DNA of 30,582 bases from Phialocephala subalpina. Its lineage: Eukaryota > Ascomycota > Leotiomycetes > Helotiales > Mollisiaceae. Within the stretch, counting starts at the first letter, position 1. Every line of letters begins with the position of its first letter. Made by a program: the position numbers and the translations under genes. Below the pieces are notes generated by a model. That model did not search any database, was not told the DNA's origin, and was given only the letters and a program-made list of their open reading frames with translations. Positions 2,282-30,582 of this stretch are shown here, in pieces. Where the stretch lies: contig FJOG01000053.1 of assembly GCA_900073065.1 (NCBI GenBank), positions 83,755 through 114,336 on the forward strand, in the 5' to 3' direction.

Positions 2282-3682
2282 AGGCTCTCACTCTGTGTCT
2301 TTCCCAATAAGAAAAACTCGATCTGTAGCCCGAAAGACTTGCGGTTGGCAGATCTGAGAGATATGGGAGGGAATTCAAGATAAATAACGCGAATTGAAGT
2401 GGAAAAATGCTGGCCCGGGCTGAACGGCAATCATGGAAGGCATCAATATTACTACGCCCAAACTTACTAATATATACGGAAGCGATCGCTGGATCATCTT
2501 TTGATATGTGTACTCTGAGCTGTGTGTTATTTTCGCGGGGTAATGGAGATTCTCACTTGTAAGTCGTGCTGAAAGGGGCAAAGTCCGGCGAACATTGAAG
2601 ATCTCGCCTCGCTCGCTTCGGCCACACTTTCCCCTTTTGATTCCGCATAAAGTTTGCTCGACTAAGACCCTGGAAAGTGCATGCATGAGGGGTACCATGC
2701 AGGTAAGGAATGCTAGAGAACGTTGATCTACCATGCTCCCAGCATGTACAGAAGTTACTTGGCTTTAATAACGCACTTCTATCCGCGACTACTTCGGCGG
2801 CGCTCCGCTTTACAACGGCATTGGACCCAAAAATGGTCGATTCGTTCACGAATACCGAAAATGGTCTAACCCCGTGGAGTCTCGGTCAGAGAGCCTGAGT
2901 TTAATTCAACGTCACATGTCATGGGCCACGACGAGTTAAAAGGCCTTGGAGATCAGTATGCCTTTAACATTCCCGAGAACGATGACGATGGAGAGCATTT
3001 ATATGCCACAGTCAAGCTGCCTCAATTAACCATTTTCCAACAAAAAGCGTAGAAGCAAATAAATGCTGTGTGTTGCAGGACGCAGAAGCAACCGCGGAGA
3101 TTTCAAAGGATTTTGATATTTACAATATATGAATTTTATATATCACCTGATCTCATACATACACTACTGCAGCAAACGGAAGGCTTTTTAGGTGTACATG
3201 AGAAAACATTCTCCATACACCTGATCTCCGGCATCCTCAGTTACACGTTTGTTCGAGTTTACGAAGGACTTTGGTATTTACAATCTACAGTTAAAGATCT
3301 TGAGTGATATGGCAGTACGTAGGGTCCTAGAAGAGTACTGCGAGAATGCCAAATGTAGAGGGCATATCGCTTATGAAGGGATAGCTGGGTTTTATTTTGA
3401 CACATATATTCCATTTATAATGAATAGACTTTAGGGGCAAAATGCACGAATACTCTTGGAACAATTACTCGTGGTGTCAGATCCATCCTCAACTTGTATC
3501 TTCTCAAGGTTTCTGCTTTGGCACGGCTCCAATCATGCTGATAACAGTGGAGAAATAAATGGACCAGCAATTGTAGGTGTAACATAGACTGTATATTGTA
3601 GTATCTGAAGGACAGGAGTAATGGGTGCGAACGTACGAAGCCTTAATTTAGAAAAGATTCAAGTATGCTGGGTACAGTATAT
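2282..3682. other. Spacer between two pseudogenes; no gene supported
   Basis: Short unrelated frames only. The part next to the CPR start (2282-2500) probably held its promoter: a TATATA stretch and the 10-mer TATACGGAAG (2473-2482) lie about 190 nt upstream of the old ATG. A 21-nt sequence at 3106-3126 recurs at 3264-3284 with two transition differences. Confidence 0.6.
2473..2482 (+). promoter_or_regulatory. Candidate shared motif TATACGGAAG, copy 1
   Basis: Exact copy of a 10-mer also present at 16391-16400 and 21683-21692, each in an upstream region. This one is about 190 nt upstream of the dead CPR start (minus strand). The function is a guess; the CGG half-site resembles those bound by fungal Zn2Cys6 regulators. 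Confidence 0.3.
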
Positions 3683-4327
3683 TCAAACTCTATTCGCCTC
3701 CTTTTTCCTGGATGCTTTCATCTCCTTTTGCATGCTCTTTGCGTATTTCACAACAAATCCATGAGTATACACCTCGCGGACGGATTCGAGCGGCATGCCA
3801 TGCACTTCCGGATAGCAGAAGTAGATGAAAACCCAACCTATACCACAGATAGAAGCATAGAATCCGAAAGCACCGCTAGGTGTCATGCCCTTCATCATCG
3901 ACAAGAACGTTGATGCAATGATGATATTGCAACCCCAACAAGTTAACGTGTTGATCATCGTTCCAAGGGCACGAACTTCGTGAGGGAGAAGTTCAGTTCC
4001 AACCAAAGCAACTGGAGCAACACCTGCCGCAAAGAAGCCGACGTAAAAGACGATGGTAACCAGCAGAAGTGTGCCGGCCCAGTTGATACCCTGGGCTTCG
4101 AGAACGAGGTCTTTGCTGACGGGGATCCAGTGGAAGGCGGTAGCTACGATCACGAGGGAGAGTGACATTCCAAAAACCGTGATAAGAAGTATGATCCTGC
4201 GGCCGAATCTGTTCAGAGTGAAGAAGTAGGCGAATCCGAAGATGAAGTTCGTGCCTCCAACTACCAGAGGCACCGAAACGGGTTTGTTGAATCCAACGAG
4301 GCCAAAGAGAGTCGAGGAGTAGTACAT
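3683..4327 (-). pseudogene. MFS sugar transporter (myo-inositol type), C-terminal half
   Basis: A 214-residue frame matches the second six-helix half of the sugar-porter family. It opens with YYSSTLFGLVGFNKPV (helix 7 region), then NRFGRR (residues 39-44, loop 8/9 signature), ELLPHEVRALGT (112-123), a CWGCNIIIASTF helix and PEVHGMPLE (173-181), the C-terminal sugar-transporter signature. The wording is closest to fungal myo-inositol/H+ symporters. The frame stays similar a few residues upstream (GENFNTL, to about 4348) and then similarity ends; the first six helices are not found in 4350-5000, which is low-complexity and AT-rich. A plausible intron acceptor (TATACTAAAAG) just upstream suggests this was a 3' exon. 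Without the N-terminal half it cannot form a transporter. Annotators may call it a short intact gene. Confidence 0.8.
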
Positions 4328-4689
4328 TAAGGTGTTGAAATTCTCGCCTTTTAGTATACAACTTAAAAGAGAGAGTTAAACTATATTAAACCCGCGGACC
4401 AAAACAAGAACTTCTACAAAAAGACTTACGGTCAGAGCTCACCAACCGCTCAATAAGAGCTCGGGGGCGGAAGCTAATTGCCAAACTATATATCCATTAG
4501 AGACACAAACGATTTGGAAGGCGAGCAAGCGACTAGCGATTCTCAGCATTCAGTAAATCTCGATATTTAGTCTCAAGCCGATTACGATTCGACCTCAGTA
4601 ATCAAGTTATTTATATTAGTCAATTTCAATTAAATGTTTATATGCAAAGTTAGGCTTTTAAGTACGCTATCCTCAATATCCTCTCTGTC

Positions 4690-4956: not shown

Positions 4957-5039
4957 TTTATTGCCGAAACTAATCCAATGCCATTTTCCCCCCTAATCTT
5001 CCCCATGTTTCTTTCCTTTTTACTTTTATAAATCCTCTT

Positions 5040-6360
5040 TATTATTTCTCGCGTATTTGCGCCTCGATAGGTTTTTATATAGCCACGAATATAAACGCGC
5101 TAACCAAAGAAAATTTAATATATAAATAACTTTTCTTATTTAGAGTAAATAAATTAAATATTTAATTCTTAATTTTTCTAGCGAAGAAAAAATATCTTGG
5201 AAAGAATATAAACGAGATTTTTCGAGATATTAAAATTAATACCAAGGAATAAATTTAAAAAGAAATAATATAAAGTAAATAATATAAAGTTTTAATAAAA
5301 TATAAAACTAATAATTTTCTTTAATAAATAATTCCAAATAAATCCATAATAATCGATTTAATAAATTTAAATTATAAAATATTTAAAAAGTTTATTTTAT
5401 ATAATTATTATAATTAATTTTAATTTAATATTATTATTATCCTTTCGATCGAAATAATTAAAATTATAATTAGTTTATTTTTCGTATATATAATTCTCGA
5501 ATTTTATAATAAAAAATACTTGAATTTATAAACGAATAATTTCTTAATCTTATTATCAAAATATAATTCTAAATAATTAACGCAAAAAAATTAATAAAAT
5601 TATATATTAAAGCGAATAAATTTAAATATCAAAAGATAAATATTATTAATAATGAAAATAATACTTATTTTATCCAAGGAAATAATATAAATTTATAATT
5701 AAAATCCAATATAATTAGAGTTCCAAAGTTATCAAGTATAATTACTTATTTTATAAATTCATTTTAATTATTTCCTCTCGAAAAATCTCGAGTTTCAAAT
5801 TATATAAATATAATTTAAATCCTATGAAATGAATTTCTTCTAGCGAATATATATTTTAATATTTTTAATATTCAAAGGATTATTCTTTCCGAGAAAAAAA
5901 GTAATTATAATATTTAGAATATATAAGGTATTACGAGTATATAAAATAAAGTATTAATAGCTATTAAATTTACTAAGAAATAAAAATAAAAGGAATATTT
6001 AAAAATTAAATTTAAATTACGAATTATAATTTATATTATAAGGTTTTATAATATTTTAAAGAGAATACAAATATAAGATATAAAAGGTAAAATATAAAGC
6101 TAATATCCTAAAACGTTAATTCGAGTATTAGTTAGAAAGTTATCTTTATTAATTTTTATTTAATCTCTCGAATTTATAATTATTTCTAATTCGAAATTAG
6201 AATTTAAAGATAATAATTATTATTAAACCGAGGCACTTTCTAATCCCTAATCTAATGCCCAAGAAATATTATTATTAGCGGTAATAGCTTATTATAAAAA
6301 TTGTTAATCGAGGCTAAAAGAGTTCTGCATAGTAAAAAAGATAAAATAGAGAGGAGAAGG
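5040..6360. repeat. AT-rich block, probable RIP-degraded repeat
   Basis: About 1.3 kb of nearly pure A/T with TA-rich words and very few CA/TG, no open frame of note and no recognisable domain. It continues from the TAG-riddled frame at 4690-4956, so it may be the rest of the same mutated element. Confidence 0.85.
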
Positions 6361-6747
6361 AGGTAGCGAAACGAGAATTATTGGCAACACTTTTCAAATA
6401 CCTATTGGCGCGAGGTTATAATTGGGATGAATTCATATTCTGCTATAAACAAGAAAATGGCAGACATATAACCGCACGATCCCCATCTGCTCCTCTTTTT
6501 GCTCAGACCGTTATCTGATTCAGTTAGAGATCCCCGTGGATCCAATTCTCTTTCCGCCTTGGCCCCTCAACAGCTGATTATTCTCTCCCAAGGGTTCCAC
6601 TGTGTTCTCCTCGACGTGGAAGACTTATGCTCCGATTCTGAGTATGCCTTAGAGCAGGCAGGCTTCCCAATGGACTTCTCAGCGACTGTGGTGTATCTTC
6701 TCCCGAACCGCCAATAGTTAATAAAGTGAACGCTAAAGAGTAAGGTC
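6361..6747. other. Spacer; no gene supported
   Basis: Normal-composition DNA between the AT block and the repeat-protein pseudogene. A 72-codon plus frame at 6499-6717 and two minus frames overlap each other here; none shows a domain or a convincing start. It could hold the lost 3' end of the pseudogene. Confidence 0.5.
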
Positions 6748-9474: not shown

Positions 9475-10130
9475 CTTAAGAGTGCTAAGCTTTTAATCCA
9501 TCCTTGCAAGACTGCAGTGATACAGCTAATAGATATTTATATAGTCTTTAAAAGTCTTGTTATCTCTGTTCGGCATTGAATGTTGCCCGGTATGTTGTGA
9601 TAGACATTGCTCGAGATAATGTGGAACCCATTTTGGCCTCCTGTGTGCCCCGGCTACAGTTTCCTTACCGAATTTTGCCCGGGAATCCGTTTTGTTCTCC
9701 TACAGGGTTCTTGCCGGAGCAGCTTTTGGATCCCTCTTGTCAAAGAGCTCGTGTAGTAGTAATTCAGCCACACAAGTCAGAATACGGTGGGCCGTTTCAG
9801 CCTCTGTGGCATGACCTCAGTAGTCACGGGACTTTTTCACATGATGATTGATACATCAGTCTCTTAACCGATTGTTGGGGGCGCGGCGCCCTTCCTAACC
9901 CGAAACCCAGAGAGGACTTAGTCTCACTTTTGAGAAGTTTCGAGTAGTACTTGCCTTAGTATATTAAGCCTGCGGGCGCTTCTAGCCGCATAAAGCGTAG
10001 CGCCCTCGCTAAAACAAATCATGTGATATTAGAACCTATAAGTTCAAATCTTCCCTGTAGTTTTCGTCGTGATCCCTTCACAAGGTTTCGGGCATTTCCA
10101 TTGTTAGTATATACTCCTACTCAATGCACA
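9475..10130. other. Spacer with a GC-rich inverted repeat; no gene supported
   Basis: A 91-codon plus frame (9576-9851) shows no domain or gene context. The stretch 9880-10010 is GC-rich and hairpin-prone: GGGCG/CGCCC arms near 9882, and GGGCGCT (9974-9980) with AGCGCCC (9999-10005). It may be the edge of a decayed element next to the AT block. Confidence 0.5.
9974..10005. repeat. Inverted repeat, 7-bp arms
   Basis: GGGCGCT and AGCGCCC are perfect reverse complements separated by 18 nt. Could be a hairpin or the remnant of a small element; no function can be assigned. Confidence 0.5.
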
Positions 10131-10690
10131 CTTAAAATTTCGCGAGTTTTTATTTTAAATAATTAATTATTCGTTTAATTTAAAATTTAATATTTGGTTT
10201 TATTATATATTAAATTATATTTATAAAAAAGAATTTTATTATTTTTATTAAATTAATATAATTGTATTTTAAAATAAATTTTTTTATTTATATATTAAAA
10301 TAATATTAGTATTTAAAAGTAAATTAAAAATAAAAATATATTAAAATAAATTAATAAAATAATATATATATATATAATTAATTTTTATTTATTTTTTGAA
10401 TTATTAAAAATAAAAATAAAAATATAATATTTTATTAATATTATTAATATAACAAATTCAATTATATATAATTATTTTATATTTCAAATTTTATATTTAT
10501 AAATTTTATATATTAGAAATTATTAAATATTAAAAATACGAGTTTTTAATAATAAATAAATATATATTAATAAAAAAATTTTATTAGATATTATAATTAA
10601 TAAACGGATTGCATGTAATATATAATAGTATTTTCTAAAATTTTAGAAAATTTTATAAAAAAATTATTAAATTATAATTTTTTAAAGTTG
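10131..10690. repeat. AT-rich block, probable RIP-degraded repeat
   Basis: Almost only A and T, with no coding frame. Sharp change to ordinary composition at about 10690. Confidence 0.85.
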
Positions 10691-11897: not shown

Positions 11898-12215
11898 TGC
11901 TTACCTAAGGAGGCCGTGAAAGCTTCGCATTCTTGCTGGAGAGTCAACACTGCCTTCGTTTTCATTCCAAAATACAGCTACACGTATCTTACGAGGCACA
12001 CCGAGAGACATAAGTGCATTATATGATTATTCTTGCACAACACACCAAAGCAGACCGCAAGGGGCCTTTTGGTGGCTTGTAACTTCAATCCTCGCGTGAA
12101 TATATAGTGATATATTCATATACTCCTCTCTTCTATTTGGAATTTTCTTATCGATACAATGGATCCCATTGCCATTTCAATTTTTCTCCGGTTTATATTT
12201 CTTGCTCGTTGATCA
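11898..12215. other. Spacer; nothing recognised
   Basis: Ordinary composition grading into the AT block; no reading frame, repeat or RNA gene seen. Confidence 0.5.
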
Positions 12216-15075
12216 AAAATATAATCAAATCTCAAGTAAATTTTAAGAATTAAAAATATTATATTTAATTATATTATAATATAAAAGTTATAATGGAAAA
12301 TATATTATTAAGGAATTCAAATAAGAATTTAATAAATTTAATTTTTCTTTAAATTGGAAATATATTATATATTTAAAAAAAATTTAATTTTATAAGTTTA
12401 ATATATTATAAATTTTTTATATAGGATTTTATAATATTAATTAATAATTTGAAAATTAATTTTATTTAAAATATTAATTTGAATTTAATTAATAATTTAA
12501 TTAATTAATTCTTTAATTAATTATTTATTATAAAAATCAATATAAATTTTTTCTTAGAGAAATTATATGAAAAATAAAATTAAAAAAAAAGATAATTTCT
12601 TTCCCAAATTTTAATAAAAGTACTAAATATAATTCTTTATATAATCTTTAATAATTTCTAATTAAAAATACCAAAATCTTAATTCATTTATATTTTAAAT
12701 ATTAATATAACTTTTTATATAAATTATTTAAAATTTAATTAAATATATTTATATTTTAAATTTCAAATTAAATTATTATATTATTATTATATTATTAATT
12801 AATAAGTAATTATATATTATAAATTATAATCGTAAAATATTTTAAATATATTTTATTTAAAATATTAAAATTATTAAATATTAGAAAATTATAATTTTAT
12901 AATTTTATAATTTTATAATTATATAATTTTTAAAAGGAATTTTAAGAAGCTTTTTCTAATAAATAATTATTATAATAAAAATATAAAAAAATAATATAAA
13001 AAATTATAAGAATTAATTTCTTAGAAATTTATTTTCAAATTAATCTCAAAATATAAAAAATATTCGAACGTATTATTATTAGTTTATAATTATTAATTAT
13101 GATTATTATTATGATTATTATTAATAAATAAAATTTAATAATAATATTAAGTAATATAATTAAATAATTTGTAAAGTTTTTATTATTAGTATTTTATTAT
13201 AAAGTTTATAATATATATATAATTACAAAGAATAAAAAAGAATTTATTAAATAAAAAGAATCGAATTAATGATACTTTAAAATTCAAGGTATAATTATTA
13301 AAATAATTAAAAGAAATCAAAAAAACTTTTTAAACTTTTTTAATTAATTTATTTTCTTAAATTTTATAAAACTTTATATTCTAAAGAGAAAATTAAAATA
13401 TATTATTTTATAATAAAATATTTATAAATATTATTATAAACTTAATATTTTATTTTAATTTTATTAATTAAAATAATTTTTACGAGATAATAATATTAAT
13501 AAAATTTATATATAAAATATTTAAATATTTTAAATTATTAATTTAATTAATATATATAAAATTAAATTTTAATATTTATATATTTAAATTATATAAAGTT
13601 AATATTAAATATTTTATTAAAACAAGAGAATTTGATTTATAAAAAAGATTATTTATTTATTAAGAATTTTTTAAAAGTTTTTCGAAAAAATATTAATATA
13701 TTTACAAATTAATTAAAATAATTTAAAGGATTTAACGATTTAAATATACTTAGAAAATATTATAATAAAGTTAAGCAAAAGGAAAAACGCCAAATTAAAG
13801 AAATAAAAACTCAAAAATAATTTTTATATAATAAATTTAAAGAAAACTAATAAATAATAAATTTTTAAAAATTAAAAAAAATGATTTTATGAAATTATTA
13901 TTTAATTATTTGATTATATATTAAAAAACGATTATAAGGAAACATTTAATTATATATTTTATTATAATTTAATAAATTTTTAAAAAAATTAATTAATATA
14001 ATAAAAATAGAAATTATAAAAAATAAATTTAAAAAAATAAAATTTATATTTAAAGAAAATTAAAGAAAATAAAATTAAAAAATTAAAAAGTAATTATAAA
14101 TAATAAATCGCGCTATAAAAAAGAAAATAAAAGTAAATTAATAAATAAATTAAAAAAAAATTATAATAAAAATAAAAATATTCCAAATAAAAATAAATTT
14201 ATAATTTAAAAAAAGAAATTTTCTTTAATTATTTTTATAATTAATAAAATATAATTATAGTTTTTAATTCCAAATTAATTATTATAAATAATAAATAATT
14301 TATTTATTTATAATAAATAAATATAAATTAAGAATCCTAAAGAATATTCTTTTGAAATATTATTATAATTAATAAAAATATTAAAATTTTGAAATTAATT
14401 ATCGCGAATTATTTTCCTTAAAATTTATTATTTTCCTATTTTTTAATAATTTCAAATTAAAAACTAAAATCGAAAACTTTATAATTTTTTATAAAAGCGT
14501 TTTTATAAAATTTACGAAATAATATATATATTAAATAAAAAAAATAAAAAAATAAATTTATTAATTCGTTTATCAAATTAATTAAAGCGAATAATTTCTT
14601 TTCTTTTAAAATAAAAGAAATATATTATATTTAAAGAATATATTAAATTTCTATTAATTATTTCGATTTTTTAATTTTGATTTAATATTTAAATTAGAAT
14701 ATTAAATATAATATTAATAAGTATATATTAAAGAAATATTATTTAAATTATTTAAAAGTTTTCTAATTATTAGAATAAAAATTATTACGAATAATATAAA
14801 TATCTAATAAATTTAATAATATAATATATTTTTAATATTTAAGAAAATAAACTTTTATATATTAAAAAGTATTTATTTTGTCCTAATTAATATTTTTTCT
14901 CTTTATTTAAAAAAAAGAATTAATTTTTCAAATATTATAAAATAAATCGCAATTTATAATAAAATTATTAGAAATATAAATTCGAAAATAAATCAAAGAT
15001 TCCTTTCAATAATAATTTTATATAATTATAATTTTTCTTTATTTCAATTCTCAAGTCCTTTATATTTATAAACGA
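12216..15075. repeat. Long AT-rich block (isochore), probable RIP-degraded repeats
   Basis: About 2.9 kb of almost unbroken A/T with no coding frame. It marks the left border of the biosynthetic gene island. The RIP origin is inferred from TA excess and loss of CA/TG as judged by eye; no index was computed. Confidence 0.9.
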
Positions 15076-15869
15076 TTGCAATATATACAAACTTATAAAC
15101 CTACCAACAAATTATTAATTATCTACTCATTTCGATATTCCCCGCCCTGCCTTTACTCTATACGAGTTAGGAGGCTTGATCGGAGTCCAAAGGACTTTAC
15201 ACACAGTCGAAACCAATTACAGGCTCGGTTTTTCTCAAGCCTGACGCAATATGGTCTTGTGATAACCAGCTACCTACCATCATCAAACTCAGTATACCTC
15301 CAAACCAAAACTAGCAATCAACCTAGAAACCTGATTCGATCTTTGCTTAAAAAAAAAATACATGGACAAAGTAGACGTGGCATTCACTCCAAAATATTCA
15401 GGAGCTTGCTTTTATTGTCGGACAGACGCAAGGTACGCATCAGGGGACGGGTCAACGTGGTATTTTTCTCCCAAGAAGCCTTACTCCCCCTCGAGTCGAC
15501 GCGCGTGTTTTCTCGCAGTATCTTCATAAACATCTACACTTGGCTTTGCTTACCAATGACGAAGACTGGGAGAGTCTAAAAGAGTGGCTTCAACTTCTTA
15601 TTTTCGGCAATAGGCCAAGCTCGAATAGATATATTTGTTCTCTCGTCAAAGAATGTGACAAATGGTCCCCGACAAAACTCGACTACCATGCCCAACTGTT
15701 CTTCCAAAGTCAATCCACCCTCCCTTCTTGCCTCCAACATCTATTTTCGTAATAGAACTTTCTTCTGTGACAAGCCCTCCAGCCACATACGAAAAGCACC
15801 AAACCTTTGGGTAGAGTTAGAGCTAAGTGCATCTGAGATTCTACGGGCGGGCTCACCTCAAACTTTGCT
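15076..15869. other. Spacer with coding-like fragments, unassigned
   Basis: Plus-strand pieces look partly protein-like: a 55-codon frame from ATG 15362 (motif GACFYCRTDAR) and a frame around 15525-15752 reading LLTNDEDWESLKEWLQLL. They are in different frames; a GTACGC...CTCGCAG intron between them does not give the right phase. They may be remains of an unidentified gene. The last 100 nt are the 3' flank of the precursor gene on the other strand. Confidence 0.35.
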
Positions 15870-16075
15870 CTAGATCCAGTTGATGGCTTCCTCACGTTTG
15901 TCGGTGGGCTCAGGGCTACGCTTGATCCAGTTGATGGCTTCCTCTGGGCTACGCTTGATCCAGTTGATGGCTTCCTCCGGGCTGCGTTTGATCCAGTTGA
16001 TGGCCTCTTCAGGGCTACGCTTGATCCAGTTGATGGCTTCCTCTGGATTGCGCTTAATCCAATTGATGGCTTCGT
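15870..16075 (-). repeat. 33-bp coding tandem repeat of the precursor
   Basis: The DNA word for EEAINWIKR recurs with mostly synonymous differences (GAG/GAA, AAC/AAT, ATC/ATT, AAG/AAA, CGT/CGC). Four full units are followed by one shortened unit (SPEPTDKR) and a final copy ending at the stop codon. Differences at third positions argue for selection on the peptide. Confidence 0.9.
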
Positions 16076-16236
16076 CACGTTTCGCTAGTATCTGTCAGCA
16101 CGCTTCAAGCATCTCCCAACAATCAGCCATCTCTCATACCAATGTCATAGTCTGGCACTGCGGCCATCGGTGTGGGCACCGCAAGGGCGATGCTTGCGAG
16201 CAGTGCAACAGCAGAGAATGCTTGTGTGAACTTCAT
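15870..16236 (-). CDS. RiPP precursor peptide: signal peptide plus six EAINWI repeats with KR sites
   Basis: Two exons, 16236-16140 and 16084-15870, joined across a 55-nt intron (16139-16085; GTATGA donor, GCTGAC branch, CTAG acceptor), give 103 residues. Residues 1-19 are a clear signal peptide (MKF start, hydrophobic core, ending ALA), then a Pro-rich pro-segment. From residue 34 Lys-Arg sites separate the units DEAINWI, NPEEAINWI, SPEEAINWI (three times), a short SPEPTD and a C-terminal EEAINWI. EAINWI is invariant in six copies; the DNA unit is 33 bp. Secretory signal, tandem cores and Kex2-type KR sites are the hallmarks of UstA-like dikaritin precursors (ustiloxin, phomopsin, asperipin type), and three UstYa-family genes follow within 5 kb. 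Unlike those, the core has Trp and no Tyr/Phe. A TATAAAG lies about 100 nt upstream. The intron places exon 1 in another frame, so it is easily missed. Alternative: an unmodified Kex2-processed repeat peptide. Confidence 0.88.
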
Positions 16237-16337
16237 ACTGACGATGGCTGGTTGAGCTTAGATGGGTTGTTGAGTGACTATGTTGGAAAGGAGAAAGAAG
16301 AAGTGGTTTGATACTTTGAAACAGCAGAATCCAAGGG

Positions 16338-17234: not shown

Positions 17235-18246
17235 TCAAGAATGATTTAAAGTATAGTCCCAAACGGTCTCATAATTTCGACATTGGTGAGTGGTATTCCA
17301 CCCAAGGAAGACAGTGCGGCCATTGAACAATGTGGGCACCTCGATAGTCGTGTCGCCAGCACATTGTAAAGCGTGGCGAACGTAATTGAAACAATGCTTA
17401 ATATGCCATAGACCATGATCATGAGGCACGTAGTTTGGAGAGGTTGTGTCTCCATCCGAAGCTTCGAACTCAACCGGATCGAGCTTCTTGTCCATGAGTT
17501 GCCAAAATACGTGACGAATGGCACCCTAAATGAAGTCAGCAAATTTGAATATTTGGAGTTGCAGCAAAAGGGACTTCCTGACCAAACAATGAATTTGGTG
17601 GAACATGCTGATGCCGTACAACTCTCCGGATCCGTCCGATGCTTGAGACCCCGGCGGCAAGTTCAATTCGCGAGCATTGGGGATGTAAATGAAGCCTTGG
17701 GCGTTCTTTGTTGCTATGAGATCTCAGCATTAATAATATCAACTCTACGAATTAAAGGTCTCATACGTCCAGCGAGAGCCTCCCAAGCTGCATCGCTGCG
17801 CTCGCTCTGGCGCTCTGTAAATATCTCGGAGGGTCCGAATGTCTTCAACTCGTAGGGTACTGAGAAAAAGGGTCAGCTCAAGTTCCCCATCAGATATTAG
17901 ATTACAGCTAGTGTGAATTACCATTTTCGATTGGGTTTCCATATGGGAGTTCCAATTCCGGAGGACTCCTTCTTACGATGGTGAAATTTAAGGTGAAAGT
18001 CAGGATAAGTGAAGATATCACCAAGATGGCCGAAACGCCGTAGATGACGTGGAGGAGCAACCGGTGACGATCAAGTGTAAATTTGCTATGCTTTGGCAGT
18101 GATTCTTGAGAGAGTAAGTTGGCTCCCTCCAGGGAATCTTTCTCGTCTGAGTCAACAGAGATGTATCTGGGCAACGCCTGAGTTTTCGACGGCCATTTGA
18201 ACACCATTTTCTGAAGTTGGCGGGTGCCTCGAAATGGATTTTGCAT
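17235..18246 (-). CDS. UstYa-family (DUF3328) oxidative cyclisation protein
   Basis: Four exons: 18246-17922, 17859-17767, 17713-17583 and 17525-17235, giving 279 residues. The introns are 62, 53 and 57 nt with good branch sites (GCTGACC, GCTGAGA, GCTGACT); the third has a less common GTCAGG donor. The start could also be ATG 18207 (266 residues). The protein has a cytoplasmic N-terminus, one membrane helix (about 63-86), a sequon (NFT, 87) and a lumenal domain with both family motifs: HQIHC (178-182) and HIKHC (224-228), the latter followed by FNYVRHALQCAGDTTIE, a typical UstYa ending. UstYa/UstYb proteins act in the secretory pathway on the precursor and are needed for oxidative side-chain macrocyclisation in ustiloxin-type pathways. 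It lies about 1 kb upstream of the precursor on the same strand and is the best candidate for its cyclase. No break is seen. Confidence 0.92.
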
Positions 18247-19230: not shown

Positions 19231-19962
19231 ATGTATCCTCGGACATCTTATCAGGCATCTACCTCAAAATTTGAAGATTTGGAGGAAGATGTCTCTGACA
19301 GCGTTTCCACCTCCGAGATGACCGGTCTTCGTCAGTTCTCCAGCGCAGGCAACAAGATTTCCAGACGAGGCGCGAGATACCCCATGATCCATTACTTCAT
19401 AGCAGGCTGTTGCTTTCTGACGACACTCGGTCTTCTCATTTTCTCCACGACAAATGCAAGGTCCAGCGCCGTATCTACCACGAGCCTAGTACTTGAAACC
19501 AATGTACTGGGCCTGAATGAAGATATCCTAAGATCCCCATGCGGCTCATCTCCTGCTGAAGCCAAAGCTTTGGGCTGCACATTCGACATCATCTCATTTT
19601 GTTGGCTACCCACCCGCTGCTACGATGCTGAACTGTCACATACATTTGACGAACTGGTCCAGTGGGAATGGTACATCGATCACAACAAGACACAGCCCGT
19701 CTCGAAGTCTGAGGCTCTAACTGGAGAGCTCGATGGACTGTACGTCAGTTGGGAGTACCATGTTCAGCATTGCGTTTATATGTGGGAGAAGATGCATCGG
19801 GCTCTCATGGGAGAAGGAAAGCGGGCTGTGGATGGATATATTGGTGTGTATGCTCATACGCAGCATTGTGGGAAGATGCTCCTGACCCGGGGAGATGGAT
19901 TTGAACTCAGTGATTTCAATACGAGAATCAGGGTCAAATACCCGGATTGTGGGATCGAGTGA
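19231..19962 (+). CDS. UstYa-like membrane protein with two HxxHC motifs, CG/GC subtype
   Basis: Single exon, 243 residues, ATG 19231. Acidic cytoplasmic N-terminus, one membrane helix (about 52-72), then a lumenal domain. Family motifs are present in variant setting: YHVQHC (176-181) and HTQHC (209-213), 28 residues apart, closer than in the neighbour at 17235-18246. A further signature precedes them, CGSSPAEAKALGCTFD (104-119), with nearby Cys 124 and 130. The gene at 20407-21175 has the same layout, so the two form a subtype. By family it is expected to be an ER/Golgi oxidase or an oxidase partner acting on the precursor; UstYa-type proteins often work as pairs. Its own chemistry is unknown. 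It is transcribed divergently from the first UstYa gene and convergently with the third. Confidence 0.85.
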   Translation: MYPRTSYQASTSKFEDLEEDVSDSVSTSEMTGLRQFSSAGNKISRRGARYPMIHYFIAGCCFLTTLGLLIFSTTNARSSAVSTTSLVLETNVLGLNEDILRSPCGSSPAEAKALGCTFDIISFCWLPTRCYDAELSHTFDELVQWEWYIDHNKTQPVSKSEALTGELDGLYVSWEYHVQHCVYMWEKMHRALMGEGKRAVDGYIGVYAHTQHCGKMLLTRGDGFELSDFNTRIRVKYPDCGIE

Positions 19963-20406: not shown

Positions 20407-21175
20407 TCAATAATACCCACAAACACCGAAAGAGGCCCTCAAGCGCGTAACACATACTCCATCCGCGGTGCAATTTCCAGCTCCCAACTCTCCCGTGTAC
20501 GGATTCAAGACATTCCTCTCACAATGATGCGAGTGTCCCAAAGAGATTGCAGTATCATCAATCGGCCTCTTCTTAACCCAAGCCTGATGCAATTTCAACC
20601 ACTGATAAGTGCAGTGGACGAGATGATACTTGTCCGCAGTATAGACGACCTCATGATCACCAGCGAGGATCTCCGCACTGTCTATCTCGTCTGCTGGATC
20701 TAAGGTATAGCTGTGGTAGAAACGCCATTCCGTCGTCTTCTTGAAGGATTCAATGAGTTCGGCGTAGTAGCATGCTTCTGGGACCCATTGCCAGGACATG
20801 GGCTCGAAACGGCATCCGAGGGCTCGCGCAGATGCTACGCTGTTACCGCAGCCCCCAAACTCACGGCCTGTTGGGACGTCTGGCAGTTTCTGCCGCGGGA
20901 ACAGTGCTTGATAGCTGAGGAGCGTAGAAAGGATGATGATGGTACAAAGGTAGATGACGGTTCCTCGGATTCCTGGGGTGGCACGAGGTCGTGGAAGGGG
21001 CGTCTGTCGCTCAATGGCTACTTCCGATAAATCGGAATAGGGGGTCTCATTTTTTTGACGTTTGTGAGAAAGGCGTGATGCACTCTCCTCGACGGTCTGG
21101 TATTTTGACTAATATGACTCTTTGTCAGCTGCGAGCCTTGAGAATACAGACTTTGATTTTACTTGCCTCTGACAT
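20407..21175 (-). CDS. UstYa-like membrane protein with two HxxHC motifs, CG/GC subtype
   Basis: Main exon 21108-20407. A short first exon 21175-21152 (eight codons, MSEASKIK) joined over a 43-nt intron (GTCTGT donor, GCTGAC branch, ATTAG acceptor) gives 241 residues, close to its 243-residue paralogue. Without it the long frame has no Met until MSWQWV (20799), which would lose the membrane helix, so the start is inferred. Features: acidic N-terminus, one helix (about 57-76), GGCGNSVASARALGCRFE (93-110) matching the CG/GC signature of the gene at 19231, then YHLVHC (169-174) and HSHHC (200-204). Expected to act in the secretory pathway on the repeat precursor, perhaps as a partner of the other two. 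An ATG at about 21049 opens only a ten-codon frame that overlaps the coding exon out of phase. No break seen. Confidence 0.83.
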
Positions 21176-22110: not shown

Positions 22111-25100
22111 ATGGCTTCCAATCTCACGTTTAGTGGAACAATAGCAGACGCTCTCGCCAGTGACAGTGCTTTCGGCCCGGCAAGCTCCACGAGGGACTTT
22201 GACTTCACCCTGACCTTTGAGCAGAGCATCTTGTCCATCTTGCCCTCCGCGCTGCTCTTGCTCATTGCACCTCTACGGCTGATACAGCTATCTCGAAGGG
22301 ATTCGCGCACCTTACCCCACATCGGTCATGCGTTCAAGACGGTATGCTTCTGCTTCTACTCGTGCTCGTGCTCATGACCGTGAACTGTGGACCACGACTA
22401 ACGCCATACAGACAGCCGCGGCAATTAATCTTGCTCTCCAATTGGCCTTGGTAATATTATGGTCCTCCTCTCCTTTCATTCGGCCTCGGACAAGCATTCC
22501 TTCCGCCGTGCTATCGTTGGTCACTTCCGGTATCATCTTGATCCTCTCGCACCTTGAAGACAAGAAGGCAACGAGGCCGTCTACCGTGCTCAATATCTAC
22601 CTCTTATTATTGATCTTGCTCGATGCAACCCAAGTCCGAACTCTGTGGCTGATTGATTATGGCCATGTCGCTGCTGTTCAGAGTGCCGCCGTCGGCATCA
22701 AGATTGCCATGTTGCTCCTGGAGGCGCAGACCAAAGTGCCTCATCTTATGGGACCTTACAAGGACTATCCTCCTGAAGCTACAAGCGGGTTTTGGAACCT
22801 GAGTTTTGTTTGGTGGTTGAACAGGCTCTTCGTCATGGGCTTTCGGAAGCTCATGACCACCCAAGACCTGTTTGATATTGACCGTAACCTTACCTCCGAA
22901 GTGCTCGGGGACAAGCTGCAAAACGCCTGGGACAAACGTGGTAAGGACAGTTTGACTCTTTGTACATTACTCCCGAGACACTAACAGATTTGAGAAATTC
23001 CCGAGGGATCATATGCGCTGCCAAAAGTTGTGGCTTGGTGCTTTCGCTGGAATCTCTTAGCAGCAGCATTTCCTCGTCTATGTATCATCGGCTTCAATTT
23101 CGCTCAACCGTTCCTAATCGCCTCGGCCATCAACTACTTGGAGGGCTCCAGCCTCACACAAAACAAAAATAATGGTTATGGGTTGATTGGAGCTGCATTT
23201 CTTATCTACTTTGGGATCGCGGTATGACGACCTTGTCTGCGATCGTTTTTTGAGCTAACGATTGAAGATGTCGACTGTACATTTCAAACAGCAATTTTCG
23301 CGAATTACAACCATGTTTAGAGGAGGAATGATCTCGTTGCTTTATAACAAGACTTTGTGCCTTCAAGAGGGGGTCTGTACAGAGGGCGCAGTTCTTACGC
23401 TTATGAGCACTGGTAATTCCCCGATCTTTACGTCATATATGATCACGTTCTCGACTTTTGTGATGTGCTTTCTGACTTAGTGTGCAAGATATTGACAATA
23501 TAATCGAATTTCTGGAAAAGATCAATAATATATGGGCCTGCTCAGTGGAAATTGCAATCGGGACGTGGCTTCTGGAACGGCAGCTGGGTGCGACATGTGT
23601 TGTGCCATTGATTGTTACACTTAGTAAGTCGCTCTTTACTATTTTAATGACAATTCTCATATTCGTCTGCAGTCTGTGCGATCGGACAAGGATGGGTTGC
23701 CAAGGCTATTGGTAAAGATCAACAGCGATGGAACGAAGCCATTCAACAGCGTGTCAAGAATACTTCCTCGATGCTCGGCTCGATGAAGGCGATTAAGCTT
23801 TCCGGACTCGCGGAGAATACCTCGTCTAATATTCAAAGTGAAAGAGAACAAGAGTTGAAGACTTCTCGGCCGTTCTTCTGGGGCATCATGTGGCTCAACG
23901 GACTTGGTAGGCAACTGCCTTCATACCTCCCAAAATCTACTAGCTGACGCAAATAGCGAGCCTTCCGAAGATCTGGGCACCTGTGATATCTTTCATTGTG
24001 TTTGCTATTCAAGCCACGGTCAAAGGAACAAGCTCATTGACAACAGTGCAAGCATTTGCCTCGTTGAGCATTATCACTCTTGTCACATCACCGGCTGAGC
24101 AACTACTCGCTGTTGTACCTCAGATTGCTGCTGCTTTGGGTTGTTTCAACCGTTTACAAGCATACTTGACCTCCCCTTCAAGACAGGATTCTCGACTTCA
24201 AGTCTCCTCTAGGAAGTCTTCAATATCGTCGACCCCTCACGAGAAAGGCCATGGTGATCTTGTATTTTCTTCCATTCCACCAAAGCTTTTGCAACCACCG
24301 CTTGCTATCATAGTAGAGAAAGCAACGATCTTCCTAGCTCCCAACGCGACAGCAGCTGCTATCACCGACGCAAGCTTCACAGTTGAGACTGGGTCATTGA
24401 CTATTCTGCTTGGGCCTGTTGGTTCGGGTAAAACAAGCTTAATCAAAGCTGTATTGGGAGAACTGACCTGCGCATCTGGGAGTATATTCGTAGCTTCGAA
24501 AGGCATCTCATTTTGTAGCCAGTCATCATGGTTACCCAATATCTCTGTCAAAGAGAGTGTATGTGGACCGATAAGTTCAGAAATTGACCAAGAGTGGTAC
24601 GAAACAATCCTACACGCTTGTGCTTTAGACCAAGACGTCCTCCAATGGCCTGACGGGGATCGAAGCTTGATTGGGAGCAAAGGGCTCACACTCTCAGGAG
24701 GGCAGAAACAACGCGTGGTAAGTAATTCCTGAGGATCTTATCCTCTGTAGATATTCTTTAACAGCTCCAGGCATTGGCTCGAGCGGTTTATGCTCGACAA
24801 CATATTATTTTGCTCGACGACATTTTCAGTGCTCTAGATGCCAAGACACAAGAGGTGATTAGTACCCGACTTCTGACGAAGGAAGGACTTTTCCGTCGTC
24901 TCGCAGCGACTGTGGTCTTGGTCACACACAATAGTGAGCCTCTTGTCAGACCTTTGAGACTTCTGAGGTGCTGAGTCAATATTCTGTACAGCTAGGTGTC
25001 TACGTCTTGCGGACAAGATCGTGGTGCTTAATTCCTTGGGAAGATTAATTATGCAGGGCACCTACCAGGAGTTAAGCCAACGAGAAGGATTTTTGAATTA

Positions 25101-27037
25101 CACTACTACTGAATCAAACGAATCCGCGGACAAAGTAGTTGTTCCAATTCCAAACAGCGGCCAAAAATCGGATGAACCATCCCAAGGGGCCAAGACGGAC
25201 ACGGCCATGGAACTGACCAGGCGTACCGGTGACCTCAAAATCTATTACTACTACATTCAAAACGCAATGCCACTACTTTGGATCGGCTTTGTCGTTGTGA
25301 CGGCTTTAGCGGCATTCGCGGACAACTTTCCTTTCGTGTGGCTCAACTGGTGGACGCAAGCTGGAGGCCAGAAACTATCTCTCTACCTGCCAGTGTATGC
25401 AGCACTAGCTCTTATGGCTTCAATCCTCTCAATTCTCTCCATCTGGGTGGTGTTCCTGAACCTCATGCCACAAGCCGCCATCCAGCTCCATCAAATCTTG
25501 CTGAATTCGGTCATTCACGCTCCGCTATCGTTCTTCGCATCCACGGATACTGGAGTAACTCTGAATCGGTTCTCGCAAGACATGAGCCTGGTTGATCTCC
25601 CATTACCGATAGCACTACTTACCGTCTTCGGGTCGCTCTTCGGCTGCATAGCCAAAGTTGCACTGATATCCACTGGATCGTCCTACATGGCAGTGACGAT
25701 TCCCTTCACTATTCTAGCGATCTATATCATCCAAGATTTGTACCTCAAAACGAGTCGCCAACTTCGGTACCTAGACCTAGAGAACAAAAGCCCGCTGTAC
25801 TCACATTTCATAGAAACTCTCGACGGCCTCGCCACAATTCGTGCTTTCGGCTGGGAGCACACAGCTAAAGAGACACAGAATAGAAATTTGGATCATTCTC
25901 AAAGGCCATATTACATGCTCCTATGCGTTCAGCGGTGGCTGAACCTAGTTCTCGATCTCATGGTCACTGCACTTGCTGTGGTTGTGGTAGCACTGGCTGT
26001 TAATCTGAAGAGTACAACGACTGCTGGTCTGCTGGGCTTAGCGTTGAACAATGTTCTCGGATTCAATATGTCAATCTCGGCGCTGGTGACGTCTTGGACG
26101 TCACTTGAGACCTCTCTTGGGGCCGTCGCGCGAGTCAAGACGTTTGCTGAGACGACACCATCCGAGGACAAGTCCGGTGAGATTTGTGAACCACCTTCCG
26201 AATGGCCGGCATGTGGTTCTGTTGAAATCAACTGTGTTTCAGCCACATATGATACCTCCGTTTCGGCTTTAGACAGAATCAGTATGAGTATAGCACCCGG
26301 ACAGAAAATAGGAATCTGTGGGCGCACTGGAAGGTTAGAAGCCCTCCAAATGTTTCCCTCCGAGCAGTGGCTAACTCTCATACAGTGGCAAAAGCTCCCT
26401 ACTCATCACCCTTCTGCGCCTCCTCCCAGTCTCCTCAGGCTCCATCACCATCGACGGCCTCGACATCAGCACCATCTCCCACCAAGTCCTCCGCCAACGA
26501 CTCACCGCAATCCCACAAGAATCGTTCATCCTTCCCGGCACCGTGCGTGCCAACGCTGATCCCCTCGGCCTCGCTTCAGACGCCGAAATCATCTCAGCGC
26601 TGATCAGAGTCGGGATCTGGGACGCCCTCGAGAGTCGTGGCGCTCTCGACGCAGTATTACTCGAGAACCCGCTCTCTCAAGGACAGCATCAGTTATTCGG
26701 TCTCGCGAGAGCTATGTTACGTAAGAGCAGTGTGCTGATTATTGATGAAGCGACGAGCAGTGTGGATGGTGAGACGGACCGAGTGATACAGCAGGTGATT
26801 AGGGAGAGGTTTAAGGAGTGTACTGTCATTAGCGTGGCGCATAGAGTGAGTTTCTCGCCGTTCTTTCTTTTAAGGAGGTTGGTCGGGGTGATTTGGCTAA
26901 CATTTGTGGCGCAGCTTGATACGATCATAGACTATGATAAGATTGCCGTGATGGATGGGGGGAAGTTGGTGGAGTTTGATAGTCCTGAGAACTTACTTGC
27001 GAGGGAGAGTTTGTTTAAGGAGATGTATCGAGCATAG
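22111..27037 (+). CDS. ABC transporter, ABCC (MRP) type, 11 exons
   Basis: Exons 22111-22341, 22412-22940, 22995-23221, 23268-23412, 23489-23623, 23673-23906, 23957-24717, 24771-24933, 24992-26333, 26386-26845 and 26915-27037 keep phase throughout and give 1449 residues, normal for a full ABCC protein. Order: N-terminal TMD0 helices, TMD1 (with PFLIASAINYL and FRGGMISLLYNKT), NBD1, TMD2 (TGVTLNRFSQDMSLVD), NBD2. NBD1 has Walker A GPVGSGKT (653-660), LSGGQ (746-750) and Walker B IILLDD (766-771), with Asp in place of the catalytic Glu, as usual in ABCC NBD1. NBD2 has GRTGSGKS (1252-1259, split by an intron), LSQGQ (1352-1356) and VLIIDEA (1372-1378) with the Glu. No stop or shift. ABCC pumps export organic anions and conjugates; next to a precursor and UstYa genes it probably moves the product or protects the producer. 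Two exon starts (22995, 24771) were chosen over nearer AGs to keep family wording. Confidence 0.95.
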
Positions 27038-27491: not shown

Positions 27492-28349
27492 AAGCCTATA
27501 GAATTCACACAGCAGTTCCCCAGATGTCGAAACTTGCGCGAAGTTAGCTTGACCATCAGCAGACGTAAGCTTGGCCATTAGGCCGACGACCAGGAGATCG
27601 GTAACATCATCACCCAAAGGCCTTTCTAGCTACAAGGATGCAAGAAGCTATCAAGAGCCGAGATCGCGGCTGCGCTTTCCTGAAATGAGAACTACTTCAC
27701 TTTGCGACGCGAACAACGAATTACACACGCAGACGTGACGAAGATCTCTAAACCACTTGGAATCGAGAGGAAGCGAATCAGCGTGGATCTAGAGAATCAC
27801 TCTAATTGCTATCAGCTAGCGTTCGGAGTATGGTCTTGGGAAGCAGGCGAGAGACAGTACATAGATCGGAGTTGTGAGATTGGTTGGGTACAAAAGCGGA
27901 GTTTTCGGAAGCCTTACTACCACCCATGGTACGAGGATGGAAATCGAGGAGTATAATGAGGAGAATAGGAAAGATAGTGACAGAGACTGGGAGGATAGTG
28001 ATGACTATGAGGAAGACTCTGAAGAGCAAGAGGATGACGATGGGGAGGACGAGGACGCTGACAATCATTAAGGATCTCTTTAGCATAAGCGTTAAAATCA
28101 TCCTCCTCCAAACCCCACATAATTCTTACCATTCTTGCAATTAAATTGCTGGAGACAATAATATTACAATGCGCAAGAATATGATAGCCTGAGATTCATA
28201 GTCAATATTGGGCTTGTAAGGCCAGATCTTGCTTCTGAAATTTAAATTTATCTATATTATGGCAAGAATGTATTATCTGACAACAATAAAAGAACGAAGA
28301 GAGGAGATCTGTAACCATGTATTGATTGCAAGTATAGAAGTCCTACAAA
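27492..28349. other. Degenerate region with an acidic coding-like stretch
   Basis: A plus frame to 27956 reads LAFGVWSWEAGERQYIDRSC, and an overlapping frame to 28071 is an Asp/Glu-rich tail (DSDDYEEDSEEQEDDDGEDEDA). They could be two parts of one frameshifted protein with an acidic C-terminus, but no start, domain or family is recognisable. The acidic run may be only purine-rich sequence. Nothing is seen from 28072 to 28349. Confidence 0.3.
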
Positions 28350-28351
28350 TT

Positions 28352-28549
28352 TCATTCGTTGCCGAGCATACCCTGAGGTATAGCAGCCTTCGTTGACAAC
28401 GCAATGAAGCCACTGAACAAGCACATCGCGCTACTAAACATAAAAACTTCAAAGAATCCTCCACAATGAAGAAAAAAAAGCTCCATTCACGAAAGATCCA
28501 ATCAACCCTCCAAACCCAGCTATTGCTATCCCCATGCCCAGGGTCGTCA
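28352..28549 (-). pseudogene. Monocarboxylate-transporter-like MFS C-terminus, frameshifted
   Basis: The minus strand reads TTLGMGIAIAGFGGLIG, a helix followed by SFVNGAF, like the GMxxxxxxxxxLxGxPIxGAL part of fungal monocarboxylate-transporter homologues, and then, in another frame, GGFFEVFMFSSAMCLFSGF, like the GGYxxxxxFxGxxxxxGxxF helix that ends these proteins. The frames meet next to a run of eight T (coding strand, about 28472-28479); one T fewer would join them. The first ten helices are absent and the piece begins directly after the end of another coding fragment. It is a decayed remnant, or a gene fragment with a homopolymer sequencing error. Confidence 0.55.
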
Positions 28550-28867
28550 TCACGTGAAGATTTCCTTCTCGGCATCCATATGAGCAAGCTTGTCCCATGC
28601 CATGCCTTGTTTGCATGAATCGAAAAGCACTTGATGATATGAAATTTAGTATCGTCCAATGTTTTCCTTTTTCTCAACTCACGTGCTTGTTCACTTGCGT
28701 GAAGCATCCTCGGCACGATAAATCCTTTAGTCCTTGATAATTTCCTTGCCCCTTACCACTTTCCCATCAAAATCCAGGACCACTCTTTCCTCTAGATCGT
28801 AGTTCATGATCTCGAAAACATGTTGCTTTTCCATCGTGTGACACAAACACGACGATTCGACCTTCAT
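28550..28867 (-). pseudogene. C-terminal fragment of an unidentified two-exon gene
   Basis: From ATG 28867 a 46-residue frame reads KQHVFEIMNYDLEERVVLDF and ends in TAA at 28727. One base off, the next frame reads TKGFIVPRMLHASEQA, crosses a good 53-nt intron (28682-28630, GTGAGT donor, ATACTAAAT branch, CAAG acceptor) and ends FDSCKQGMAWDKLAHMDAEK...IFT before TGA at 28550. Both halves look like real protein, so one frameshift near 28727-28735 probably broke a gene. I do not recognise the family. Confidence 0.4.
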
Positions 28868-29329
28868 GCCTTATTGAGGTGCAGCGCGTCGATCACAGCA
28901 GCCTAGGCTCTCCAGGTACCCTTCGATTTCCCCACGTCGAAAGGACCGAAAAGGTGCCTCTCGAGTTCGTTTTACTCCCTAAAAATGTATTCCTGAAGTC
29001 ATGAGGCTCTCAGAACCATGTGAAGACTACATAGAAAGGCCGAACCTATACCGTCGTTCGATTCTGAACCCAAATCTGGGATGTTTTGTAGTAGAGGATG
29101 CTACTAGTACCCACCCTGCACTCACTTGCAATCTCATAGCCATAGAAGCCAAAGTAATGTCATTTAACCTGTCCGGATCTTGAATTACTTATTTTTCTTT
29201 GAAATATTATTTCTGCCTCTTTGAGTTTAGCGCACCCGCTTCGGGGATGGCGCCTCGCTTACCGAGCCGCTACTTTTGACGACGATTATAAGAACCCCCT
29301 TTCTTCCCTTATCAAATCTCTTAACTAAT
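28868..29329. other. Spacer; no gene supported
   Basis: A 60-codon plus frame (29001-29183) has no domain. From 29215 the sequence becomes a short GC-richer stretch (GCACCCGCTTCGGGGATGGCGCC region) immediately before the AT block, much as around 9880-10010 at another block edge. Confidence 0.45.
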
Positions 29330-30582
29330 TCCAAAACTTTCCATTTCATTTATATATAACTTTTTCTTTAATTAAATATTAATTTTATTATTTTTATTAT
29401 TTTGAATTTTAATTTCTAAATTATATTTTTATTTCTTTTATTTTATTTTAATTAATAATAATAATAATAAATATTAAATACTCGTAAAAAATTAGAACTA
29501 TTTTATTCCTATAATTATATTATTATTTAAAGTAATTAATTATACTATTTATAATATTATTATAAATCGAAAATATATTATATTATTATTTTTCGAAATA
29601 TATTAAAAAATATTAAAATTTAATAAATAAAAATAATAGAATTTAATATTCTAATATACTTACGATTTACAGATTATTATTTCTTTATTTTACTCGATTT
29701 AAATTAATTTTACTGAGAAATTCTATTAATTTCCTTTTTATATAATTTATTTTATTTTAATTTTCTTAGTAATTTTAAAATATAAATATAATATCAAAAT
29801 AAAAACAAAGTAAATTACTTATTTCTATTCAAATAATAAACTTTTAAAGTTTATATTATAATATTAATATAATAATAATAATAATAATATAATAAAAAAA
29901 GAAATTAAAAATTATATTATTTTCAATATAATATATTTTAATTAAAGAAATATTTTATTTATTTTTCGTTTTAATAGGAAAATAAAATAATTATATATAA
30001 AATATTAAATAATAAAATTCGTAATTTTCTTTTTAATATAATTATATATTAAATTTATAATATATATTAATATATTTGGGATTATTTTATATTCTTATAT
30101 TATTTTTTGAATTATTCGCCGTTTTAATTACTAATAAACTTTTATAATCTTTAAATTAAAAAAAATTAAAAAAATTAAATAATAAAAAAGATTAAATTAA
30201 AGAAAATATTACGAATTTTTTAAAATCATAATAAATTTATTTTTATAATATAAACGTAAATAAAAGAAATCGAATTATTTATTTATATTTATTAATATAA
30301 TTTATATAATTTTATATTATTAATTACTCGTCGAAAATAAATCTTTTTTTATAAATAAATTTAATATTTGATTATTTATTTAAATTATAAATTCTATTAT
30401 TTTTTATAAATCCTTTTTAATTTTTATTAATTAATTTTAATTTTTTAATTATATATATAATTATTATTTTTATTAATATTAATAATAATATATATTGAAA
30501 TTTCTTATAATATAATTATTAAGGAAATTAAATAAAAATAAAATTATAAAAATAATTAATTTATATAAAGAATTTTATTCAA
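29330..30582. repeat. AT-rich block, probable RIP-degraded repeats
   Basis: Nearly pure A/T to the window end with short ATA and AAT microsatellite runs (for example near 29871-29890) and no coding frame. It is the right border of the gene island that holds the RiPP-like cluster. Confidence 0.9.

Follow-up and report, generated by a model that had tools for sequence, protein, structure and literature searches.

A minus-strand gene of Phialocephala subalpina, predicted to be spliced, probably encodes a Kex2-processed, UstYa-modified RiPP precursor with tryptophan, and no tyrosine, in its core

A short tandem array in the window (the whole stretch of 30,582 nucleotides of Phialocephala subalpina DNA analysed here) is open to reading on both strands, and the locus raises the question of which reading is the gene and what its product becomes. 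The first-pass annotation had proposed a spliced minus-strand gene with six EAINWI units between Lys-Arg (KR) sites, and our coordinates, intron and translation agree with that proposal. The gene consists of the following parts.

16140..16236, minus strand: precursor exon 1, in which residues 1-19 are a predicted signal peptide ending in SIALA, followed by the start of the pro-segment VPTPMAAVPDYDI
16085..16139, minus strand: predicted phase-1 precursor intron of 55 nt, with a GTATGA donor and a GCTGAC branch-like site
15870..16084, minus strand: precursor exon 2, with seven Lys-Arg sites and six EAINWI units, then an immediate stop

From the minus-strand ATG at 16236, exons 16236-16140 and 16084-15870 join into a protein of 103 residues that reads MKFTQAFSAVALLASIALA, VPTPMAAVPDYDIAKRD, EAINWIKRNPE, EAINWIKRSPE (three times), EAINWIKRSPEPTDKRE and finally EAINWI before the stop. 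The intron between them (16139-16085) reads GTATGA...GCTGACAGATACTAG, and the last base of the branch-like site lies 9 nt before the intron end. We infer the splicing from the open frame obtained once the predicted intron is removed. In a scan of GT-AG pairs of 40-129 nt, with the donor from gene base 31 on and the acceptor before the first core, three pairs lead from the leader frame into that of the repeats free of stops; a GTATG-type donor is present in the proposed pair only, the other two having GTGCC.

The six EAINWI copies are identical and start at residues 37, 48, 59, 70, 81 and 98, with KR pairs at residues 34, 43, 54, 65, 76, 87 and 95. All six cores follow a KR at a distance of 1 to 3 residues, and five are also followed by a KR, the sixth running directly into the stop. 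Near-identical units split by Lys-Arg are the defining build of a KEX2-processed repeat protein, and the precursor shows it with its six EAINWI units and seven KR. Ahead of the array, residues 6-19 have a mean hydropathy of 2.29 and ALA precedes the presumed cut. The spliced frame, the seven KR and the six cores thus bear out the annotation's description of a multi-core precursor with a likely signal peptide. Tyr occurs once in the protein, at residue 30 in the pro-segment, and the cores carry Trp. It had also been claimed that a plain open reading frame scan overlooks the gene, which proved correct: in its place, mechanical lists cover the repeats with two other frames, one of 124 aa on the minus strand and one of 145 aa on the plus strand. 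Tandem Repeats Finder describes the array as 33 bp x 5.1 with 86% match, and a search of the genome returned the precursor once, as its two exons. No homologue of the spliced precursor was found at E <= 1 among 4541 candidates of 0.55-1.75 times its length.

Could the KR spacing have arisen by chance? Seven KR were never reached in 20,000 shuffles of the precursor after residue 19 (maximum 5), a result that is weakened by the tandem array, which duplicates its own KR. The first and last cores have different spacers (AKRD and DKRE), yet KR stands before both, and since a tandem array carries KR along, these two sites are more telling than the shuffles.

The opposite strand of the same array carries a long open frame.

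15874..16311, plus strand: antisense open frame of 145 codons with LRLIQLMASSG repeats, the rival reading

If this frame encoded the true gene, an LRLIQLMASSG-repeat protein, the minus-strand reading would be a by-product. It is open throughout and has a relative, P0072 (188 aa, 73% identity over 74%, E 5.8e-39), a public metagenome protein named "hypothetical protein" by JGI; it matches no Pfam family, and we found no relatives of P0072 in viral contigs. The first-pass annotation had pointed to mostly synonymous variation between units in favour of the minus frame. As an observation this stands, with 22/22 pairwise changes synonymous inside EAINWIKR, but as an argument for the frame it fails: in the antisense frame the unit changes are likewise synonymous in 16/16 cases, and over the whole 33-nt units 2-5 that frame does slightly better (17 synonymous and 0 not, against 20 and 3 for the minus frame). 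The pattern fits both frames because the wobble (third) positions of the minus and antisense frames coincide, and synonymous change as proof of frame was dropped.

P0072 offers another comparison, since the annotation would have given up the gene had orthologues kept some other frame in place of the repeat frame. In this one relative the repeats are compatible with both frames, whereas the ends of the antisense frame are not kept: an in-frame TAG at 15871-15873 of the window stands opposite Tyr 84 of P0072, the C-termini differ, and P0072 extends 83 residues further upstream, with its residues 6-29 aligning in another frame of the window. When P0072 is translated back onto the minus strand, 30 of the 32 residues of leader and pro-segment can stay as they are, and two hydrophobic ones have to change, L18 into I/V and V20 into L; there is also room for three KR-x-P-...-(E/A)AINWI units. 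Because the sets of allowed residues are wide (the Trp site also permits Cys or a stop, and the KR sites other residues), the back-reading speaks for compatibility and is no proof. The exon 1 changes are H to Q, K to N and E to K, involving charged or basic residues, on the plus strand, as against V to L, L to I/V and F to F/L on the minus strand. At the intron ends, antisense His-Thr and Ala-Ser are conserved in P0072 and, by our own reading, permit the donor and acceptor. Identity in the antisense frame is 5/7 before the ATG, 29/32 over exon 1, 17/19 over the intron, 30/40 over exon 2 (31 gap columns) and 40/50 past the minus stop (3 gap columns), so that the predicted intron appears as conserved as exon 1 in that frame, which is unusual for an intron. 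A plus-strand gene leaves the leader, the intron, the KR spacing and the UstYa-family neighbour all unexplained, and we regard it as extremely improbable; P0072 may have been entered in the database on the wrong strand. If so, a small spliced precursor can vanish from view when a database calls the antisense frame, as with P0072. A contig of 11,876 bases is given both for P0072 and for P0012, a metagenomic relative of the window gene Y2 (below), and from the equal length we infer that the two lie on one contig, which suggests a conserved cluster. P0012 shows a frame switch relative to Y2 after residue 143.

Around the minus-strand precursor, which is the better reading, the following genes were detected.

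17235..18246, minus strand: Y1, UstYa-family gene (PF11807) of 279 aa, with HQIHC...HIKHC
19231..19962, plus strand: Y2, single-exon gene of 243 aa, with a predicted helix at residues 51-74, then HVQHC...HTQHC; without a Pfam family
20407..21108, minus strand: Y3, paralogue of Y2, with HLVHC...HSHHC
22283..27037, plus strand: gene of an ABC transporter whose TMD0, membrane and ATP-binding domains are spread over several frames; possible exporter

From the precursor, the order is Y1, then Y2 and Y3, then the ABC transporter. Y1, which the first-pass annotation did not mention, lies 1 kb upstream of the precursor on the same strand; it is predicted to have four exons (18246-17922, 17859-17767, 17713-17583 and 17525-17235) and matches PF11807 with E 4.2e-30 and 105.7 bits (cut-off 25). 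With Y1, a DUF3328 gene encoding a double HxxHC adjoins the precursor, as the enzyme-based definition of dikaritins has it. The chemical definition looks to a core Tyr as the crosslinking residue, and the EAINWI cores have none. Tyr is the residue used by most known dikaritin crosslinks. Among the Pfam matches to frames of at least 90 aa at 15.8-29 kb, except the plus-strand frame 15580-15873, we recognised no protease, tyrosinase or methyltransferase; the scans covered stop-to-stop frames of this length plus some shorter ones, so genes of short exons could be missed, and they named no further enzyme at 15.8-29 kb. Elsewhere in the genome there is one kexin P-domain match, which is partial (E 4.8e-15, 58/86 positions) and contains one internal stop, as an exon-wise match may show.

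Together, these features lead us to consider it very probable that the 103-residue precursor is Kex2-cut and that its peptides are oxidised by the UstYa-family neighbour and the two HxxHC relatives, probably via Trp. Our preferred reading of the locus is then a RiPP precursor that is processed by Kex2 and modified by UstYa, and whose core has Trp but lacks Tyr. In two publications, UstYa-type enzymes are held to crosslink the cores of Kex2-cut precursors (PMC7329392, PMC9233826), and the first describes KEX2-processed repeat proteins with DUF3328/UstYa neighbours that, like the window precursor, have KR-separated near-identical units, a likely leader and a UstYa gene nearby (PMC7329392). The EAINWI unit differs from these, and the window precursor is without a relative at the threshold given above. 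With the dikaritins (ustiloxins, phomopsins and asperipin-2a; PMC9233826, PMC12048977), the locus has in common the precursor build and a UstYa-type likely modifier; it differs in the missing core Tyr and in the tyrosinase and methyltransferase genes, which were not recognised in the scanned frames. Victorin (PMC9233826) resembles the locus in that its core finishes, or nearly finishes, with an aromatic residue that has an aliphatic one upstream, but the aromatic residue is Phe there and Trp here. The same source describes the epichloecyclins, from GigA, as products of a multi-core secreted precursor with Ile before an aromatic residue (PMC9233826); that residue is Tyr there and Trp in the window, where the constant core is also shorter.

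A precursor can also be real and Kex2-cut and still yield linear secreted signals or surface peptides, the nearby UstYa genes serving otherwise. According to a published survey, 6120 of 7878 KR-repeat precursors have no nearby DUF3328 gene and 1758 have one, and Trp is about as common in the repeats with such a gene as without (20.5% versus 24.5%), Tyr being present in 65.6% of those near DUF3328 (PMC7329392). On these figures, finding Trp in the repeat of a precursor next to a UstYa gene is nothing unusual, since one in five DUF3328-near precursors (20.5%) has it there (PMC7329392). In the window, three double-HxxHC genes lie within 5 kb of the precursor, the Pfam alpha-factor leader model (MF_alpha_N) gives it only 12.7 bits, below the cut-off of 22, and the one further precursor found in the genome likewise adjoins UstYa exons, all of which makes unmodified linear peptides improbable.

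That further precursor came from a scan of 69 loci and the window for at least three KR units with a common four-residue word, which returned one other place, locus L013, beside UstYa exons on contig C43.

G000:C43:1848703-1852188, about 2910-3425, plus strand: second precursor L013, from the KR-repeat scan

Joined by eye, L013 reads MKPTSALLVVLQFAAVALALPHGS, a phase-1 GT...AG interval, then DKR and six ADL(S/G)ALVDDELYASYD units. It has a likely leader, and the order of leader, phase-1 intron and DKR is that of the window precursor; its cores contain Tyr. The phase and place of the intron, as read by eye in L013, are the same in the two precursors, and because L013 is an independent case with matching intron phase and place, it lends the gene model of the window its best support.

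Y2 and Y3 raise a question of their own, that of their family. They are 35% identical over 118 aa, and both have a hydrophobic stretch ahead of a double HxxHC and contain the HxxHC(x)nHxxHC motif; a possible short first exon of Y3 at 21175-21152 is uncertain. This motif, also present in Y1, is that of CctR, a DUF3328 protein and copper hydroxylase for which copper dependence has been demonstrated and the motif identified as the metal site (PMC12435403). The UstYa model PF11807, in contrast, matches neither Y2 nor Y3, even at E <= 10, and no NCBIfam family matched either at E <= 1. A protein search with Y2 returned 70 proteins including Y2 itself, and thus 69 relatives; those named to species are all fungi, Cadophora gregata (65%), Cadophora sp. 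DSE1049, Penicillium, Aspergillus, Venturia and Colletotrichum among them, and none was found in viral contigs or prokaryote genomes. Two HxxHC motifs are present in 63 of the 70 proteins (Y2 included) and one in five. In an alignment of Y2 with 45 of the 69 relatives (46 rows), both motifs are found in 42 rows. PF11807 matched one of these rows (E 1.9e-4), and five unrelated families each matched one row as well (E 3e-4 to 9e-3). A comparison of the Y2-family and UstYa profiles superposed both motifs (E 4.9e-4, probability 32%), and the same comparison with the 46-row alignment gave a probability of 4.9%; kinship of the Y2 family to UstYa appears weak by this measure.

The genome contains 16 Y2-family matches at E <= 0.01 (the two of the window and 14 more) and 56 matches to UstYa (PF11807), many of them exons of one gene, which form 43 groups once matches within 1.2 kb are joined and represent a large expansion. 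Of the 16 Y2-type matches, eight (the two in the window among them) have a UstYa match no more than 10 kb away and the other eight have none, while ground this close to UstYa makes up 1.0% of the genome. Without the window locus, 5 of 12 Y2-type groups are near UstYa (binomial P 8e-8), with groups joined within 25 kb, counts that are lower bounds, and contig ends outside the statistic. The predicted structure of Y2 (mean pLDDT 80.7, pTM 0.60) is confident in two stretches, residues 101-210 and 231-243, where blocks of 10 score at least 90, and it matched nothing in PDB at E <= 0.001, the best value being 5.6. Profiles of UstYa and Y2 gave one insignificant match each to sequences of solved structures (E 0.91 and 0.59). 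A UstYa model built from nine of the genome's sequences came out poor, with a mean pLDDT of 60.6; near both HxxHC it has a strand-helix-helix-strand order resembling that of Y2, a likeness on which we place no weight.

Given that half of the Y2-type matches (8/16) fall on 1.0% of the genome and that PDB holds no match, Y2 and Y3 may represent a second, so far unrecognised line of binuclear copper enzymes that works alongside UstYa, in a cluster that makes a Trp-bridged fungal RiPP; we put this combined proposal forward tentatively and think it rather doubtful as it stands. Novelty is greater for this Pfam-invisible HxxHC family than for the precursor. No report of an EAINWI peptide was found among the 20 papers listed of 1,409 that matched in the literature search, where the string itself turned up in one paper, on medication records, and from titles and abstract openings we recognised no UstYa product with a Trp core. 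If the reading of the locus is true, it contributes a RiPP whose core is absent from the reports found in that search, and the HxxHC family becomes a second marker by which clusters of this kind can be located; the known copper-dependent DUF3328 chemistry would be broadened by a Trp crosslink.

By analogy with known systems, the steps would follow the order of secretion, KR cutting, KR removal, oxidation and export. The precursor would be secreted through its predicted signal peptide, and a Kex2-type protease would cut after KR, with removal of KR leaving (S/N)PEEAINWI, DEAINWI and EEAINWI, which may be trimmed further towards AINWI. Y1, Y2 and Y3 could then carry out a copper-dependent oxidation of the peptides, as CctR would lead one to expect, probably joining Trp to a nearby side chain. 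Victorin has a Phe-to-Leu closure (PMC9233826); as a guess from this analogy, the bond here might be Trp-to-Ile, with loss of 2 H. A further guess is that the ABC transporter exports the product.

The cluster forms an island flanked by DNA of 6-9% G+C, at 12.5-15 kb on one side and from 29.5 kb on the other, and its setting would suit an old precursor and its enzymes, decayed between AT-rich mutated blocks and with expression lost. The precursor and Y1 are, however, free of stops through their predicted exons and Y2 through its single one, and the six cores are identical as protein though the DNA of two differs from the rest, so we hold decay to be highly improbable and retain the modified RiPP precursor as the preferred reading. 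Across the window, blocks of 6-26% G+C at 5001-6500, 10001-10500, 12001-15000 and 29501-30582 resemble the outcome of repeat-induced mutation. The frames at 28352-28870 (minus strand) look by eye like a broken MFS-like transporter; Pfam scans of four minus-strand frames within 28273-28870 gave nothing above the thresholds used. Outside the island, 201-4375 (minus strand) contains a piece of a sugar transporter and the frame of a reductase that has FAD- and NAD-binding domains.
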